From the NCBI GenBank assembly GCA_945876185.1, contig CAMCMZ010000008.1, forward strand, positions 1 to 64,000: 64,000 nucleotides of DNA, read 5' to 3'. Every line of letters starts with the position of its first letter. Position 1 is the first letter of the stretch. Source of the stretch: Candidatus Kuenenia stuttgartensis. GTDB taxonomy: Bacteria > Planctomycetota > UBA11346. Of the stretch, positions 8,579-16,991 are shown in pieces. The notes beneath the pieces were generated by a model, which was not told the origin of the DNA, did not search any database, and saw only the letters and a program-made list of their open reading frames with translations. A program made the translations under genes and the position numbers.

Positions 8579-10663
8579 ATGGACCAGCTCATCTACCTCG
8601 TCGCTGCCGTCATCGGCTTCATTTTCGTGTTGTTGCTGGGGATATTCTCGTTCCTCAAGGCTTTTTACCGCACCATCGACCAGGGCCACGCCCTGATCAT
8701 TACCAAGGGCAGTGGCGCGGTGGTGTCCTTTGCCGGCTCGGTGGTGCTGCCGGTCATCCACCGCGCCGAGGTCATGGACATCTCAGTCAAGACCATCGAG
8801 GTCGACCGGCGTGGCAACAACGGCCTGATCTGCGCCGACAACATCCGCGCCGACATCAAGGTGGCGTTCTTCGTCCGGGTCAACAAGACCGAGGAGGACG
8901 TGCTCAAGGTCGCCACCGGCGTCGGCGTCGCGCGCGCCAGCGATCCCAAGACGCTAGAAGAACTGTTCAACGCCAAGTTCAGCGAGGCCCTGAAAACCGT
9001 GGGCAAGCGCATGGATTTCGTCGACCTCTACAATGAACGCGACAAGTTCAAAGACGAGATCGTCAAGGTCATCGGCCGCGACCTCAACGGCTATCAACTC
9101 GAAGACGCGGCGATCGACTTTCTCGAACAGACCCCGATCACCATGCTCGATCCGGAGAACATCCTCGATAGCGAGGGCCGCAAGAAGATCATCGAGCTGA
9201 CCTCGGCCCAGAAGGTCAAGGCGAACGAGATCGAACGCGAAGCGCAGAAGGTCATCAAAAAGCAGGACGTCGAGGCGCGTGAGGCCATCCTCGCCCTCGA
9301 ACGCCAGCAGGCCGAGGCCGAGGCCAAGCAGTTGCGCGAGATCGCCACCAACAAGGCGCGCGAAGGCGCTGAGCAGACCAAGGTCGAAGCAGAAGAGAGG
9401 AAACGCTCCACCGAGGTTCAGATCCAGGTCGAGCAGGAACTGGCGGTGCAGAAGCAGGTCGCCAACCGCGAAGTCGAGATCGCGGCCAAGAACCGCGAAG
9501 GCGCGGTGATGGTCGAGAACGAACGCATCATCAAGGAACGCGACCTCGAGATCGTGGTGCGCGAGCGCGCCGTCGAACTGTCCCAGATCGAACGCGAAAA
9601 GATCATCGCCCAGGAGCGCAAGGCGATCGCCGAGGTCATCCGCGAACGCGTCGCGGTCGAAAAAACCGTGGCCGAGGAAGAGGAACGCATCAAGGACGTG
9701 CGCGTGCTGGCCGGGGCCAAGCGCACCAAGGACGCAGCGATCATCGACGCCCAGCGCGGCGCCGAAGAGTTGCGCATCAAGGAGGTCGTGCAGGCGGAAG
9801 GCTCGTACCAGTCGGCCCAATTGCAGGCCAAGGAGAAACTGCTTCTCGCCGAGGCCGACCAGACCTCTGCCGAAAAAGAAACCATCGCCACCATCCGCCG
9901 CGCCGAAGGCAAGCAGGCCGACGCTGCCGCCAGCGGTCTGGCTCAGATCAAGGTGAAGGAACTCGACGCCGTCGCGACCGAGAAGCAGGGCTTGGCCAAG
10001 GCGCGCATCATGGAGGCCGAAGCCGAGGCGGCGAAAAAGCGCGGCCTGGCCGAGGCGGTGGTCAAGGAAGCCGACGCCGAAGCCGACAAGAAACGCGGCT
10101 TGGCCGAGGTCGCCGTGCGCGAAGCCGAGGCCAATGCGATCGAGAAGCAGGGTCACGCCACTGCCGTCGCGGTCGAAGAGAAGATGCTCGCCGAGGCCAA
10201 GGGCCTGCATGAAAAAGCCGCCGCTATGGCCAAGATGAACGAATCGACGCGCGCCCACGAGGAATACCGGCTTGGCCTGCAAGCCAAGGTCGACGTGGCC
10301 AAGGTCCAGGTCGACGCCCACGTCCAGGTCGCCGAACGCAATGCCGCGATCCTCGCCGAGGCGATGAAGAGCGCAAAGATACAAATCGTCGGCGGCGACG
10401 GTGATTTCTTCGACCGCTTCGTCAAGGCGGTCTCGGTCGGCCAGGGCATCGACGCCACGGTGATGAACAGCGAGGTCCTCCAGACCGTCGGCAAACAGTA
10501 CCTCGAAGGCGACCGCAGCCTGCCCGAGGACGTGACCAAGATCCTGTCCCAATGGGGCACCGGCGACGTCGCCAATCTCAGCCTGGCGAACTTCCTCAGC
10601 AGCATCAGCCAGAAAGACCCCGGCCTGGTGAAGAAGATCCTGGCCCAGGTGAAACCCGGGTGA
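8579..10663 (+). CDS. Flotillin family protein (YqiK-like)
   Basis: N-terminal TM + band-7 domain, long EAE/AEA-rich coiled coil (RGLAEAVVKEADAEADKKRGLAEVAVREAEAN). Confidence 0.9.
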   Translation: MDQLIYLVAAVIGFIFVLLLGIFSFLKAFYRTIDQGHALIITKGSGAVVSFAGSVVLPVIHRAEVMDISVKTIEVDRRGNNGLICADNIRADIKVAFFVRVNKTEEDVLKVATGVGVARASDPKTLEELFNAKFSEALKTVGKRMDFVDLYNERDKFKDEIVKVIGRDLNGYQLEDAAIDFLEQTPITMLDPENILDSEGRKKIIELTSAQKVKANEIEREAQKVIKKQDVEAREAILALERQQAEAEAKQLREIATNKAREGAEQTKVEAEERKRSTEVQIQVEQELAVQKQVANREVEIAAKNREGAVMVENERIIKERDLEIVVRERAVELSQIEREKIIAQERKAIAEVIRERVAVEKTVAEEEERIKDVRVLAGAKRTKDAAIIDAQRGAEELRIKEVVQAEGSYQSAQLQAKEKLLLAEADQTSAEKETIATIRRAEGKQADAAASGLAQIKVKELDAVATEKQGLAKARIMEAEAEAAKKRGLAEAVVKEADAEADKKRGLAEVAVREAEANAIEKQGHATAVAVEEKMLAEAKGLHEKAAAMAKMNESTRAHEEYRLGLQAKVDVAKVQVDAHVQVAERNAAILAEAMKSAKIQIVGGDGDFFDRFVKAVSVGQGIDATVMNSEVLQTVGKQYLEGDRSLPEDVTKILSQWGTGDVANLSLANFLSSISQKDPGLVKKILAQVKPG

Positions 10664-10717
10664 GGTTTTACCCCTGAAATAGCCCATATGATTTCATCCA
10701 GTTCGCGTCCCGTAGTC

Positions 10718-10765
10718 GCGTCCCGTAGGGACGCATTGACGTTAGCCCGGGGTTTCAACCCCGGG
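10718..10765 (-). repeat. 48-bp double-hairpin REP-like unit (family A), inverted relative to the downstream array
   Basis: GCGTCCCGTAGGGACGCATTGACGTTAGCCCGGGGTTTCAACCCCGGG, reverse complement of the units at 11358-11760. Confidence 0.92.
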
Positions 10766-10784
10766 ATCCGATCCACCCCAGGCG

Positions 10785-11337
10785 CCAGTCCCGTAGGGAC
10801 GGCTGAAGTCGAAAACCAACAATCGGCAGCCAATCGCGATTTTCATGCCCCATACCTATGTCATCGCCTATTATCACGTGGTGTTCAGCACGAAGAATCG
10901 TCTGCCGACGATCTCAGCTGAGGTTCTGCCGCGTCTTCACGCCTATCTTGGTGGCATCAACCGTGAACATGGCGGCACCGCCATGAGCATCGGCGGGGTC
11001 GAGGATCATGTCCATTTGCTCCTCCAAGTGCCATCGACGCTGGCCATCGCCAAATTGGTCCAGTTGATCAAAGGCGGAGCCTCCAAATGGATGAACGAAC
11101 AACGGGTCGCTGGTTTCGCTTGGCAGGAAGGCTACGGGGCCTTCACCATCGGTCAGTCCCAGATTTCGGATACGAGGAGCTATATTGAGGGACAGGCGGA
11201 ACATCATCAGCATTCCACCTTTCAGGATGAATACCGGCGCTTCCTGGTGAAACACGGGATCGAATGGGATGAGAAATATGTCTGGGGATGAACGCAGAGA
11301 TCCATTTCATGACCTTCAGCCGTCCCTACGGGACTGG
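10785..11337 (+). mobile_element. REP-associated / IS200-like element bounded by inverted hairpins
   Basis: Left CCAGTCCCGTAGGGACGGCTGAAGTC (10785-10810) and right GACCTTCAGCCGTCCCTACGGGACTGG (11311-11337) are inverted copies with one indel, bracketing the transposase ORF. Confidence 0.8.
10845..11291 (+). CDS. IS200/IS605-type (REP-associated tyrosine, HUH) transposase
   Basis: MPHTYVIAYYHVVFSTKNR, IGGVEDHVHLLLQVP HUH-like motif, SDTRSYIEGQAEHHQHSTFQDEYRRFLVKHGIEWDEKYVWG. Confidence 0.92.
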   Translation: MPHTYVIAYYHVVFSTKNRLPTISAEVLPRLHAYLGGINREHGGTAMSIGGVEDHVHLLLQVPSTLAIAKLVQLIKGGASKWMNEQRVAGFAWQEGYGAFTIGQSQISDTRSYIEGQAEHHQHSTFQDEYRRFLVKHGIEWDEKYVWG

Positions 11338-11357
11338 TTGGTCTTCGTGTGCATCCA

Positions 11358-11760
11358 CCCGGGGTTGAAACCCCGGGCTAACGTCGTCGCGTCCCTACGG
11401 GACGCGGGTGAAAACCGGGATCTGCAATTCCCGGGGTTGAAACCCCGGGCTGGCGTCATGGCGTCCCTACGGGACGCCGGGGGTTTTTCGTGCGCGTTTT
11501 TCCCGGGGTTGAAACCCCGGGCTGGTGTCATGGCGTCCCTACGGGACGCCGGGGTTTTTTCGTGCGCGTTGTTCCCGGGGTTGAAACCCCGGGCTAACGT
11601 CATCGCGTCCCTACGGGACGCGGGCGGAAATCGGGATCTGCAATTCCCGGGGTTGAAACCCCGGGCTGGCGTCATGGCGTCCCTACGGGACGCCGGATCT
11701 GATGTGAATGCGGGGTTCCCGGGGTTGAAACCCCGGGCCAACGTCGTCGCGTCCCTACGG
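11358..11760 (+). repeat. Tandem array of six 48-bp double-hairpin units at exact 72-bp period (last truncated)
   Basis: Units start at 11358, 11430, 11502, 11574, 11646, 11718; core CCCGGGGTTGAAACCCCGGG + 11-nt linker + GCGTCCCTACGGGACGC, 24-bp spacers. Confidence 0.95.
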
Positions 11761-11795
11761 AAAACCGAACCAGCCTTCAACATCACTGGTGTTCC

Positions 11796-14700
11796 ATGAC
11801 CGATGCCCCCGCGTCGCTCGACGCCACGACCTACGATGTGGTCCGCCGCCGGCTCGAAGGCCAGGCGGGGGAGTTGGCGGCGGCGGCCGGGCGACTGGCG
11901 GCGCGGCGGCAGGAATTGTTCGGCGGGACGAAGCTCGAACTCGTCGCCACTTATCGGGTGCGGACCGAGCATGCCTGTCAGCCGCGCGATCTGGTGTTCA
12001 TCGATGGGCGTTTCGTCATGGGCTTTGAGGTGGTGCTGGGCCTGCAAGCGCGCATCAGCCCGGCCGAGGTGCTGATCGAACTGGAAGAACAGGGCGACGG
12101 CCTGGTGCCGGTTGCGCCTCGGATCACGGCGCAGCCGGAATTCGTCAAGGATTTCGCCGAGGTCTTCCAGTATTACAAAGAAGCCCGGCTGCTTCACCTG
12201 CGGGCGACTGCGACCCGGTTGTTGGCGGCGTTCCAGACCGGCTCGCGCCTGACCGACCTGCGGGTGCTGCGTTGGGACCGCCGCGCGGACGGTTCCGTGG
12301 CGTACCTCGACAACCGTGGGATCGGCGACTACCAGTTCCCGGTCAGCCACGATTTCACCTGGACCCGCACCACCCGCGAGATGCACGTCCAGGGCGCGCA
12401 TCCGCACATCAACATCCTCGACACCATCTTCGTCGAATGCGTGCACGGCGACTTGACGGTGAAGATCGAGAACAACACCGCGAGCGGCCAGGGCGTCTAC
12501 GCCGAAACGGTCGACGATCCGACCCAGGGCCTGGACGACGCCGAGATCTATTTCGTGGGCCTCGAATCAGCGATCCTGCTCAAGATGCGGCCGTACCGGG
12601 AAAAGGACTTCCGCTACCTCGTCTACAGCCGCACCACCCGGCAGGTGGTGCGCATCGACGCCCTCGGCCAGGCTTGCCAGCAGTTGCCCGAGGGCCACGG
12701 CCTGGTCTACCCCGGCGGCTACTACCTCAGCGATGGTTCGCACAAGACCTTCCCGGTCGACGCCAGCGGGATGGAGTTCAAGCGGGTCCTGCGCGGACCC
12801 AGCGGCGAGCACGTCGCCTATATCTTCTACCGCCGCGACCTGGGCACCTACCTGATCCTGATCTACGACGTGATCGCGCGCAGCATGCAGACACCGATGC
12901 ACGTCCACAGCTATTGCCGGGTGCCGGACGGCCGCCTGGTGACCCTGCGCGCCGAACCCGAACCGGGCCGGATCCACACCTTGCAGGTCTGGCGTTCACC
13001 TTTCTGTGACGAAGACCGCCTACCCCCGCCCGCCGCCGATTCGGCCCTGGCGCGCATCGGCAACCGGGAAGTGGTGCGGGCAGTCAGCGACCTCGGACAG
13101 CTCGGGCGCATCGTCGCCAATCCGTCGCCGAATCGGGATCTGTACGATGATCTGGTCAAGCGCGCCCAGCGCACGCTCGACAGCTATCCCTGGCTGGGTG
13201 AACCAGAAACGGGCGGCTGCCGCGAGCGTTTGACTGCTCTGCGCACCACCGCCGAGCAAGTCGTCGATGAGTTCGTCAAGGTTGAGGCCCTGGCCCGCCA
13301 GGCCGGCGAGCGCCTGGCCCGGCAAGGCGCTGCGGTCGATGCCGCCCTGCGCGAACTCACCTTCGCCAAGAAGGACACCGTCGACGCGTTCACCGTCCCG
13401 CTGGCCAACCTGCGCAGCCTGCGTGGCCAGGTCGACCAGTTGAAATCCGTGCGCTTCATTGAGGTTCCGGCCTGCACCGCGCTCGATGCCCGGATCGCGA
13501 AGGCTGCGGCTGAGCTGTCGCAGCAGGCGGTGGGTTTTCTGCTCGCGGAATCCGCTCTGGCGCCGCAGACGGCCGAGGTCGCGGAGCTTGAAGCCAATGG
13601 CGCGGTCATCGCCACCGTGGTCGAGGCGAAGCCGATCGCCGAACGCCTGGCCGCGATTGCCGCCGGTGGCGATCTGCTGGTCGAGACCGTCAACGGCCTG
13701 GCGATCGAGGACGCGAACCAGCGCACGGCCATCCTCGGTCGCATCGCCGAGGTTCTGGCCACGGCCAACCGCGCCCGGGCGGTGCTCGACCGCCGGCGCA
13801 AAGAACTCGCCGGGGTCGAAGGCCGCGCCGCTTGGACGGTGCAGGCGCAACTGCTGGCCCAGGCCGCCACCGCCGCCCTGGCGCTGTGCACCACGCCCGA
13901 GGCCTGCGACGAGCAGAACGCGCGGCTTTCGGTGCAGATCGAAGACCTGGAAGGGCGTTTTGCCGACGTTGACGAGATCGTCGCCGAACTCGCGGAACAG
14001 CGCGTCCGCATCGCGGAGAGCGTGGCCAGCCGGCGCAGCCAGCTCGCCGACGGCCGCGCCCGCAGCGCCGATCGCCTGGCCACCGCCGCAGAACGCTTGT
14101 TGACCACCATCGCCAGGCGCGCCAAGGCGGCGGCCAGCTTGGATGAGTTGTCGGCCTATCTGGCCGCTGATCCGCTGGTGCGCAAATACCGCGATCAGGT
14201 CGGTCAGTTGCGTACCTTGGGCGCGGCGGTGCGCGCCGACGACCTCGACGGGCGGCTGAAAGCCGCGCGCGAAGACGCCGCCCGCAGCATCCGCGATCGC
14301 TCGGATCTCAGCGCCGGCGAAGGTCTGGTTCGCCTCGGCCGGCATGCCTTCACGGTCAACCGCCAGGCCCCGGAATTGGCGCTGATCCCGCGTCGGGACG
14401 ACGAGGGAGTGCATCTCGAATTCCAGCTCGCCGGCACCGATCTCGCCTGGCCCTGCACTGATGCGGGGACTGCCGCCCGTGCAGAAGTCTTTGAGCAATT
14501 GCTGGAATCCGAGGATTCGCTGACGTGCCGGGCGGAATGGCTGGCCTGGACGGCTCTTACGCGCCAGGCGCCAGGTGCCGGCATCCTGGACGAGTCCTCC
14601 GCCCTGGCGCTGGTCCAAACGATCGCGGCTGATTCGCCGGATGGTGGCTATGAGCGTGGCATTCACGATGCGGATGCGGCGCGCATCCTGGTCGCCCTGG

Positions 14701-16991
14701 ATCACCTCGGCCGCTCTGCCGGCTTGCTGCGCTACGGCCCGGCGTGCCGGGCGGCGGCGATCCTGGGCTGGGCCGGATGCGCTGATGCGGCCCGGCGCGA
14801 ACGCCTTGCCACTGAAGCCGCCAGCCTGGATCGCTTGCGCCAGGCTGGACTCGTCGTCCCGGCCTGGGCGGTCTTGGCCGCCGACTGCCAGCGGCTTCTT
14901 GGCGCAGCGACCCAGGCTGACTCCGGCGCAACCGCCGAGGCTGGCGCAGGCGCTTATCTAGCAGAAGAACTCGCCCGTGACGGCGGCCGGTCCTTCGTCC
15001 TGTCCGGCGAGGCCGCCAGCCTGGGCGAGCGGCTCGCGGAGTGGATCCGCCTGCACCCGGCTGATCGTACGTTGGACGAGGCCCTGCGCGCCCTGGCGGC
15101 TGATCCCGCCGCCGCGCTGCGTCTGGCCACCGCCTGGATTGGCGCGGTGGCTCCGGCTGAACTGACCCCGGCCGTGCCGGAGGCCGCTGCTGCCTTGCTG
15201 GCCTCCGGCCTGGCGCGCGTCCAGGTCAGCGCCCGCACCGTCCTCACCATTGAGGGGCTGCTATCGAACCATCCCCGCATCCGCGACGGCCGCTTGGAGG
15301 TACGCCTCGACGAAAGCCTCGCCCGGCTTGCCGCCCACGGCCGCAACCGCCTGCCGCTCTTTCGCGCCTGGCGCGCCAAGCGCACCGCCCTGATCGCGGC
15401 GGAACGCCGCCGGCTGCGCCTGGACGAGATGCAGCCCAAGGTGCTGACCAGCTTCGTGCGCAACCGCCTGGTCAACGAGGTCTACCTGCCCCTGGTGGGC
15501 GACAATCTGGCCAAGCAACTCGGCGCGGCCGGGGCGCAGCGGCGCACCGATTCCCAGGGCCTGCTGCTGCTGATTTCCCCGCCCGGTTACGGCAAGACCA
15601 CCCTGCTCGAATACGTAGCGGCAGTGCTCGGCCTGGCCTGGGTCAAGGTCAACGGCCCGGCCCTGGGCCACCGCACGGTCTCGCTCGATCCGGCCGAGGC
15701 CCCGAACCTGTCGGCCCGCAATGAGGTGGAACGGATCAACCTCGCCTTCGCCATGGGCAGCAACGTCCTGCTGCTGATCGACGACATCCAGCACTGCAGC
15801 CCCGAATTCCTGCAGAAGTTCATCCCGCTGGGCGATGGCACCCGCCGCATCGAAGGCGTCTGGCACGGCGAGGCGCGCACCTTCGACCTGCGCGGCAAGC
15901 GCTTCGTCATCGCCATGGCCGGCAACCCCTACACCGAATCAGGCGACCGCTTTCGCATTCCCGATATGCTCGCCAACCGCGCCGACACCTGGAACCTGGG
16001 CGAGGTCGCGGGCGGCGCGGGCGAGGCTTTCGCCCTCAGCTATCTGGAAAACTGCCTCGTCGCCAACCCGGTCCTGCATCCCCTGGCCGCCCGGCCGGGC
16101 CAGGATCTCTTCCGCCTGCTGCGCATCAGCCAGGGCGACGACGGCGCCCGCAGCGAGCTCGAACACCCGTACAGCGGCGCCGAGGTCGCCGAAGTGACCA
16201 CCGTGCTGGGGCACCTGCGGCGTGCCCGCGACCTGCTGCTGCGGGTCAACCAGACCTACATCTCCAGCGCCGCCCAGGGTGACGCCGACCGCACCGAACC
16301 GCCCTTCAAGCTGCAAGGCAGCTACCGCAACATGGCCAAGATCGCAGCGCGGGTGGTGCCAGCCCTGACGCCAGGCGAACTGACCCAGGTGCTGCTCGAC
16401 CACTACCAGGCCGAAGCCCAGACGTTGACCTCGGCCGCCGAGGCGAACGTCCTCAAACTCAAGCACCTCGCCGGGGTTGCCAACCCGACGGAGCAGGCCC
16501 GCTGGACTGACCTGTGTCGTGGCTTCGCCCGCCGCACCGAACTGTCCGGCAGTGACGATCCTCAGGAAAAAGCGGTCATCATGCTCGCCAAGCTGGGCGA
16601 ACGCCTGGAGGGGTTGCAGATTGCGCTTGTCCACGCCCTGACCGGCGCCGATGCCAGCCGGCGCAGCGAGTTGGCCGAACTTCTCGCTCAACTCGGTCAG
16701 GGTCTCGCCGCCCTGAAACCGCCTGCCCCGGTCCTGCTGCCACCGCCCCTCCCGGTCGAGCCACCGCGCGTCGAGGTGATCAACACCCTGCCCGCCGCTT
16801 ATGGCCGGTTGTTCGAGAAGCAGGCTCTGGTGATCGAAGCCGTACTGATCCCGCTCATCGAACGCCTGGGCCAGTACATCGGCACCTCGCAGCAGACCCG
16901 GGGTCAGCTCGAAACCGTCGCCGGCGACCTGCGCACGTGGATCAGCAAAACCAAGGATTCGCCACGGATCCGGGTTGAGGACAACGGGTAA
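11796..16991 (+). CDS. Giant AAA-type ATPase, DUF3686-like 'DNA repair ATPase'
   Basis: 1731 aa; LLLISPPGYGKTTLLEYVAAVLGLAWVKVNGPALG Walker A, NVLLLIDDIQHCSPEFLQKFIPLGDGTRRIEGVWHGEARTFDLRGKRFVIAMAGNPYTESGDRF Walker B/sensor; coiled-coil mid-region. Confidence 0.8.
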   Translation: MTDAPASLDATTYDVVRRRLEGQAGELAAAAGRLAARRQELFGGTKLELVATYRVRTEHACQPRDLVFIDGRFVMGFEVVLGLQARISPAEVLIELEEQGDGLVPVAPRITAQPEFVKDFAEVFQYYKEARLLHLRATATRLLAAFQTGSRLTDLRVLRWDRRADGSVAYLDNRGIGDYQFPVSHDFTWTRTTREMHVQGAHPHINILDTIFVECVHGDLTVKIENNTASGQGVYAETVDDPTQGLDDAEIYFVGLESAILLKMRPYREKDFRYLVYSRTTRQVVRIDALGQACQQLPEGHGLVYPGGYYLSDGSHKTFPVDASGMEFKRVLRGPSGEHVAYIFYRRDLGTYLILIYDVIARSMQTPMHVHSYCRVPDGRLVTLRAEPEPGRIHTLQVWRSPFCDEDRLPPPAADSALARIGNREVVRAVSDLGQLGRIVANPSPNRDLYDDLVKRAQRTLDSYPWLGEPETGGCRERLTALRTTAEQVVDEFVKVEALARQAGERLARQGAAVDAALRELTFAKKDTVDAFTVPLANLRSLRGQVDQLKSVRFIEVPACTALDARIAKAAAELSQQAVGFLLAESALAPQTAEVAELEANGAVIATVVEAKPIAERLAAIAAGGDLLVETVNGLAIEDANQRTAILGRIAEVLATANRARAVLDRRRKELAGVEGRAAWTVQAQLLAQAATAALALCTTPEACDEQNARLSVQIEDLEGRFADVDEIVAELAEQRVRIAESVASRRSQLADGRARSADRLATAAERLLTTIARRAKAAASLDELSAYLAADPLVRKYRDQVGQLRTLGAAVRADDLDGRLKAAREDAARSIRDRSDLSAGEGLVRLGRHAFTVNRQAPELALIPRRDDEGVHLEFQLAGTDLAWPCTDAGTAARAEVFEQLLESEDSLTCRAEWLAWTALTRQAPGAGILDESSALALVQTIAADSPDGGYERGIHDADAARILVALDHLGRSAGLLRYGPACRAAAILGWAGCADAARRERLATEAASLDRLRQAGLVVPAWAVLAADCQRLLGAATQADSGATAEAGAGAYLAEELARDGGRSFVLSGEAASLGERLAEWIRLHPADRTLDEALRALAADPAAALRLATAWIGAVAPAELTPAVPEAAAALLASGLARVQVSARTVLTIEGLLSNHPRIRDGRLEVRLDESLARLAAHGRNRLPLFRAWRAKRTALIAAERRRLRLDEMQPKVLTSFVRNRLVNEVYLPLVGDNLAKQLGAAGAQRRTDSQGLLLLISPPGYGKTTLLEYVAAVLGLAWVKVNGPALGHRTVSLDPAEAPNLSARNEVERINLAFAMGSNVLLLIDDIQHCSPEFLQKFIPLGDGTRRIEGVWHGEARTFDLRGKRFVIAMAGNPYTESGDRFRIPDMLANRADTWNLGEVAGGAGEAFALSYLENCLVANPVLHPLAARPGQDLFRLLRISQGDDGARSELEHPYSGAEVAEVTTVLGHLRRARDLLLRVNQTYISSAAQGDADRTEPPFKLQGSYRNMAKIAARVVPALTPGELTQVLLDHYQAEAQTLTSAAEANVLKLKHLAGVANPTEQARWTDLCRGFARRTELSGSDDPQEKAVIMLAKLGERLEGLQIALVHALTGADASRRSELAELLAQLGQGLAALKPPAPVLLPPPLPVEPPRVEVINTLPAAYGRLFEKQALVIEAVLIPLIERLGQYIGTSQQTRGQLETVAGDLRTWISKTKDSPRIRVEDNG

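Follow-up and report, generated by a model that had tools for sequence, protein, structure and literature searches.

A subclass 1.2 Y1 transposase between inverted copies of a double-hairpin repeat: a probable REPtron-like locus in Candidatus Kuenenia stuttgartensis

In a 64,000-nucleotide stretch of the genome of Candidatus Kuenenia stuttgartensis (contig CAMCMZ010000008.1, positions 1 to 64,000; here called the window), a gene for a small transposase, tnpA, lies between hairpin-forming repeats of opposite orientation. The question that this locus raises is what the transposase and the hairpins have to do with one another. A first-pass annotation took the gene for a REP-associated tyrosine transposase (RAYT) of the HUH type with its REP palindromes, pointed to the rigid 72-bp register of the repeats on one side of it, and concluded that the locus is a repeat-generating centre. 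The analysis described here indicates that the structure is real, that the transposase was misnamed and that the conclusion on repeat generation is stronger than the window's genome supports.

The features of the locus are collected in Table 1. Downstream of tnpA, hairpin A (CCCGGGGTTGAAACCCCGGG) recurs at steps of exactly 72 bp and is the same in all six array units, and it is followed by hairpin B (GCGTCCCTACGGGACGC) in units 1-5. In unit 6, hairpin B lacks its 3' arm (CGTCCCTACGGAAAAC), so that what had been read as six 48-bp units is an array of five full units and a truncated one, with starts and spacing exactly as first described. The other elements recognised at first pass are also present: two hairpins per unit (in units 1-5), an inverted unit upstream (its complementarity to the complete downstream units is about 90-96%) accompanied by a fragment that proves to be a piece of hairpin B, and an inner inverted pair around the gene that is complementary at 24 of 24 positions. 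A covariance-model scan of the window found seven units and, at the inner hairpin, a weak match; all of them lie within the tnpA locus. The spacer of unit 1 resembles that of unit 4 (87%) and the spacer of unit 2 that of unit 3 (91%), while those of units 5 and 6 are unrelated; coupled with the identity of the A hairpins, this pattern fits a local duplication of units, after which the spacers would have diverged and the hairpins been kept. A putative reading frame of 176 aa (11269-11799) spans the whole array with 24-aa repeats (PGLKPRAxVxASLRDAG), and it stays open since the 72-bp step is a whole number of codons.

Table 1. Features of the tnpA locus and its neighbours, in window positions
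Feature	Position	Strand	Remarks
Upstream neighbour, 694 aa, flotillin/band-7-like by appearance, no Pfam match	8579-10663	+	Homologous neighbour in sister species
B-hairpin fragment (TCGCGTCCCGTAG), 13 bp	10703-10715	+	
Inverted H unit upstream of tnpA: hairpin B, linker of 11 nt with GTTAG at its end, hairpin A	10718-10765	+	Covariance model 64.4 bits, the window's best match
Inner b' hairpin with tail GGCTGAAG	10785-10808	+	Perfect inverted match to 11314-11337
tnpA, 148 aa, Y1 HUH transposase, TnpAY1 subclass 1.2 type (DHVH, WQ, YIEGQAEHH)	10845-11291	+	
Inner b' hairpin, downstream copy	11314-11337	-	
H unit 1 (on the + strand: A, then B)	11358-11405	-	Covariance model
H unit 2	11430-11477	-	Covariance model
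H unit 3	11502-11549	-	Covariance model
H unit 4	11574-11621	-	Covariance model
H unit 5	11646-11693	-	Covariance model
H unit 6, incomplete: full A hairpin, B without 3' arm	11718-11763	-	Covariance model 35.1 bits
Downstream neighbour, DUF3686/AAA protein	11796-16991	+	Homologous neighbour in sister species

The tnpA product matches Pfam Y1_Tnp with 88.3 bits and passes the IS200 model NF033573 (68.3 bits, cut-off 55). Its identity as a RAYT is ruled out by its score with the RAYT model NF047646 (21.3 bits, cut-off 80) and by the motif YIEGQ in place of Y-x3-N-P; what stands of the first-pass claim is an HUH Y1 transposase tied to flanking and dispersed palindromes across phyla. The nearest solved relatives by sequence are IS200/IS605-type transposases such as the ISHp608 enzyme, a type to which we take the solved structures entered without an IS name to belong as well. 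The Y, Q, H and H of the motif Y-x3-Q-x2-H-H are invariant among 39 aligned homologues, and the motif was found in 76 of 78 held-out metagenome loci. It is the signature of TnpAY1 subclass 1.2, which has been described as near the IS200 transposases but without IS features, carries the entry "no" for REPs, and is hosted mostly by Cyanobacteria and Bacteroidetes (Quentin et al., 2018; PMC6006769). The window protein has all the traits of the subclass, that is, the signature, a length of 148 aa, the motif DH[IV]H in the form DHVH, the WQ motif and low copy number (there is one close copy of tnpA in the genome). It differs from the published description in its double-hairpin flanks and in a host range that also takes in Planctomycetota, Verrucomicrobiota and Acidobacteriota. 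As protein sequence is what defines the class, these flanks do not exclude membership; they amend the published negative for REPs. No double-hairpin partner of subclass 1.2 was found in the literature searched, which covers few subscription journals. The window's genome also encodes four further RAYT-size Y1 transposases (C31:5498, C12:31441, C4:106252 and C11:67518), and the RAYT model has four matches there, at least two of them coinciding with positions of RAYT-size Y1 transposases.

Double-hairpin flanks recur around homologues of the gene. In a first set, made up of homologues from species genomes, the left and right 300-bp flanks are inverted with respect to each other (inverted match score of at least 14) in 77 of 91 cases, compared with 0/91 for distal flanks and 9% for crossed pairs. 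The unit common to them consists of a B hairpin with a core of 5 bp and a loop of 3-4 nt, then 12-13 nt, a foot that reads ATAG, GTAG or TTAG, or else CCAG or ACAG, and an A hairpin. As the first parser demanded the foot and perfect stems, the analysis was repeated without the foot requirement on the 78 held-out metagenome loci. The best metagenome relatives are about 59% identical. The double hairpin was found in 106 of 142 near flanks but in only 1 of 88 distal ones, and a gap of 12-13 nt and a TAG foot predominate, though the parser required neither; about a quarter of the near flanks are without a unit. Crossed pairs match frequently in this set too (74/198), because related loci have hairpin types in common. 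The flank geometry is common to homologues of Planctomycetota, Verrucomicrobiota, Acidobacteriota and Bacteroidota, and a homologue on a plasmid of Persicobacter (Bacteroidota) has the same flank layout as the window locus. Across these phyla the geometry is conserved and the hairpin sequences vary, with stems that stay complementary. The 99.6% pairing obtained in A4 is not taken as proof of this, because the parser itself demanded complementary stems.

In the sister species (G001, contig BJHQ01000024.1), a tnpA gene whose protein is 70% identical occupies the window's locus, between the corresponding neighbour genes. Hairpin arrays flank it on both sides, with gaps of 5, 23 and 98 bp, and the A hairpin differs by a paired substitution (GTTGAAAC in the window, GCTGAAGC in the sister species). 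The 72-bp register is species-specific and not conserved. The shared locus and neighbours, the different spacings and the paired change in the A hairpin argue that tnpA has been held at one locus while its arrays turn over.

The association between unit and transposase extends to whole genomes. Exact A hairpins number 44 in the window's 3.8-Mb genome, 37 of them outside the tnpA locus, whereas the reversed pattern, used as a control, has no match in the same genome, which excludes chance. Among 61 relatives, the exact A hairpin occurs only in the two genomes with a close tnpA. The link between transposase and repeat drawn at first pass has thus held up, the unit being neither absent from the rest of the genome nor commoner where the transposase is missing. 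A covariance model of the unit (R1) and a TnpA1.2 protein alignment were then run over 301 Planctomycetota and 241 Verrucomicrobiota genomes, in which a match at E < 1e-30 defined a carrier. With related genomes treated as independent, the unit was found in 55/65 carriers and 22/236 non-carriers in Planctomycetota (odds ratio 53.5, p 8e-32), in 40/49 carriers and 9/192 non-carriers in Verrucomicrobiota (odds ratio 90, p 4e-28), and, when at least five units per genome were demanded, with odds ratios of 69 and 35, respectively; these model counts include the units that flank tnpA, are limited to about 20-26 matches per genome, and come in part from genomes that supplied units to the model. The presence of a RAYT has no added effect among TnpA1.2 carriers and a smaller effect among non-carriers. 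Weaker TnpA matches (E > 1e-30), which resemble subclass 1.1, were left out; the unit is absent from all seven Verrucomicrobiota genomes of this kind.

How the dispersed copies have moved is a separate matter. In the window's genome (G000), the six copies for which both ends were found lie inside elements of 409-625 bp with a 17-bp terminal inverted repeat (TIR; CAGAGATCCTGATCCGT), and the target duplication is an exact 5 bp in four of the six, has a base mismatch in one and is missing in one. The combination of a TIR and a target duplication of fixed length is the trace of a DDE transposase, and IS200-type HUH transposition leaves none. The main family of genome G305 similarly has a TIR (ACTGATGTTACGCG) and apparent 7-bp target duplications, read from the sequences, and the dispersed copies of the sister species have TIR-like ends. 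Owing to these TIRs and target duplications, TnpA is not needed to explain the G000 copies and the main G305 family, and it was set aside as the mover of those G000 copies that have both. The well-delimited copies of G000 appear to be carried by a DDE-type MITE, as the passengers of which they would mainly have moved, and the idea of a repeat-generating centre is, for this genome, unproven and in part contradicted. The same elements could be taken to mean that the hairpins are no more than parts of DDE-type MITEs and that tnpA happens to lie between two MITE remnants with no functional link. This is unlikely, since the TIR CAGAGATCCTGATCCGT was not found at the window's tnpA locus, subclass 1.2 genes have the inverted unit at their sides in several phyla and in different surroundings, and MITEs of different species have unrelated ends and yet the same hairpin geometry.

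A second mode of spread is suggested by G310 (Gemmataceae), in which all 11 copies examined end exactly at the outer A hairpins, in unrelated flanks, without target duplication (the longest flank match is 2 bp). These copies behave as REPIN-like mobility predicts and make a stronger case than those of G000 for spread by TnpA. The unit thus seems to travel by two routes, in DDE-like elements in G000 and G305 and as hairpin-bounded copies in G310. The hairpins of the locus and the dispersed hairpins match in G000, in G001 and for one TnpA of G305, and are near in G016 and G079. The flanks of the TnpA1.2 genes identified in G187 and G310 differ from the hairpins dispersed in those genomes, and thus the link between a transposase and its repeat family is not universal.

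Several further observations concern the dispersed repeats. The order of the two halves of a dispersed pair is, with few exceptions, reversed between the sister species: about twenty pairs in G000 read b'A B - B A b', and about seventeen in G001 read B A b' - b' A B. The tnpA locus itself has one order in both. A dispersed copy in G001 (L139:3503-3700) has no counterpart in the orthologous interval between genes in G000 (C2:107442-107611); a nucleotide-exact empty site for it was set aside, the intergenic DNA being too diverged to place the ends. A palindromic element of about 193 bp (CTGGGGATTGGCCATT ... AATGGCCAATCCCCAG; window 43080 to about 43272) has 32 copies with both ends found in G000, of which 24 have a direct repeat of at least 10 bp on both sides, and 16 of these repeats hold a perfect short hairpin that is specific to the site. 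This looks like insertion at hairpins with duplication of the hairpin, and several copies lie inside B hairpins. In G187, about ten near-identical subclass 1.1-type transposases (YIREQEQLE in the two that were read) occur beside two subclass 1.2 genes; at the two 1.1-type loci checked, a double-hairpin match was found in one flank and none in the others.

It is also very doubtful that the locus is a plain IS200-family insertion sequence with ends duplicated by chance and the array as a by-product. The protein does pass the IS200 model and other genomes hold several diverged TnpA1.2 loci, but the window's genome has a single close copy and near-identical copies of a whole element were not found in it, the sister species retains tnpA at the corresponding locus, the inverted double-hairpin flanks differ from known IS200 ends, and there are dispersed units without the gene. 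Whole-element mobility in Adhaeretor was likewise rejected, as the two regions compared have only 13 bp, and no element, in common. Least probable of all is a mainly RNA-level role for the hairpins, as terminators or mRNA stabilisers for neighbouring genes with the transposase link secondary: the stems are strong and intergenic and the array keeps the 176-aa frame open, but the fixed B-linker-A geometry with its foot is centred on tnpA, no T-runs follow the stems in the window, and G-U pairs are rare (12 against 759 Watson-Crick pairs in a foot-anchored count, the filter of which favours Watson-Crick).

Among known systems, the locus is closest in outline to the REPtron, in which a class 2 TnpAY1 (TnpA-REP or RAYT, as in E. 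coli) is associated with REPs. In both, a low-copy, vertically kept Y1 HUH gene has inverted palindromes at its borders and related palindromes dispersed in the genome, and the NTAG foot beside the stem resembles GTAG. Unlike the REPtron transposase, the window protein is of class 1, with Y-x3-Q-x2-H-H in place of Y-x3-N-P and a score below the RAYT cut-off, and its unit comprises two dissimilar hairpins at a fixed spacing, with a foot that is mostly ATAG and also GTAG, TTAG or CCAG. The TIRYT/TIRtron system likewise pairs a tyrosine transposase with long inverted repeats that are in part self-complementary and of which some recur in the genome, and R. baltica is named as rich in both genes and repeats; in the parts consulted, a B-linker-NTAG-A geometry is not described (Di Nocera et al., 2013; PMC3733652). 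Most TIRYTs were later placed in subclass 2.1 (PMC6006769). With REPINs and BIMEs the repeats have in common paired inverted palindromes scattered over the genome, and hairpin-bounded copies in the Gemmataceae; they differ in having two hairpins per half, in that the G000 pairs are carried within a larger element that has target duplications, and in a pair order that is reversed between sister species.

From its sequence features, the locus probably represents a hitherto undescribed class of REPtron-like unit, in which a subclass 1.2 transposase gene is flanked on both sides by its own double-hairpin repeat in inverted copies. The full unit would consist of a B hairpin, a 12-13-nt linker ending in NTAG, an A hairpin, about 22 nt and a second b hairpin. 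TnpA1.2 may recognise it in folded, single-stranded form, the NTAG foot serving much as GTAG does for TnpA-REP, and may be able to cut and join there. A wider proposal, for and against which we see about equal weight, is that subclass 1.2 forms a line of REP-type transposases alongside the known one and independent of it, which extends over several phyla and acts on a two-hairpin single-stranded DNA substrate with an NTAG foot, and that its repeats were repeatedly taken up by DDE MITEs, which transport them within genomes. The role of subclass 1.2 has been open because its members were described as near the IS200 transposases and yet without IS properties or REPs. A conserved and geometrically fixed candidate substrate makes that role testable. 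It would also provide a second case of REP-like coevolution outside class 2, and a defined two-hairpin target with which single-stranded DNA recognition by small HUH enzymes may be studied.
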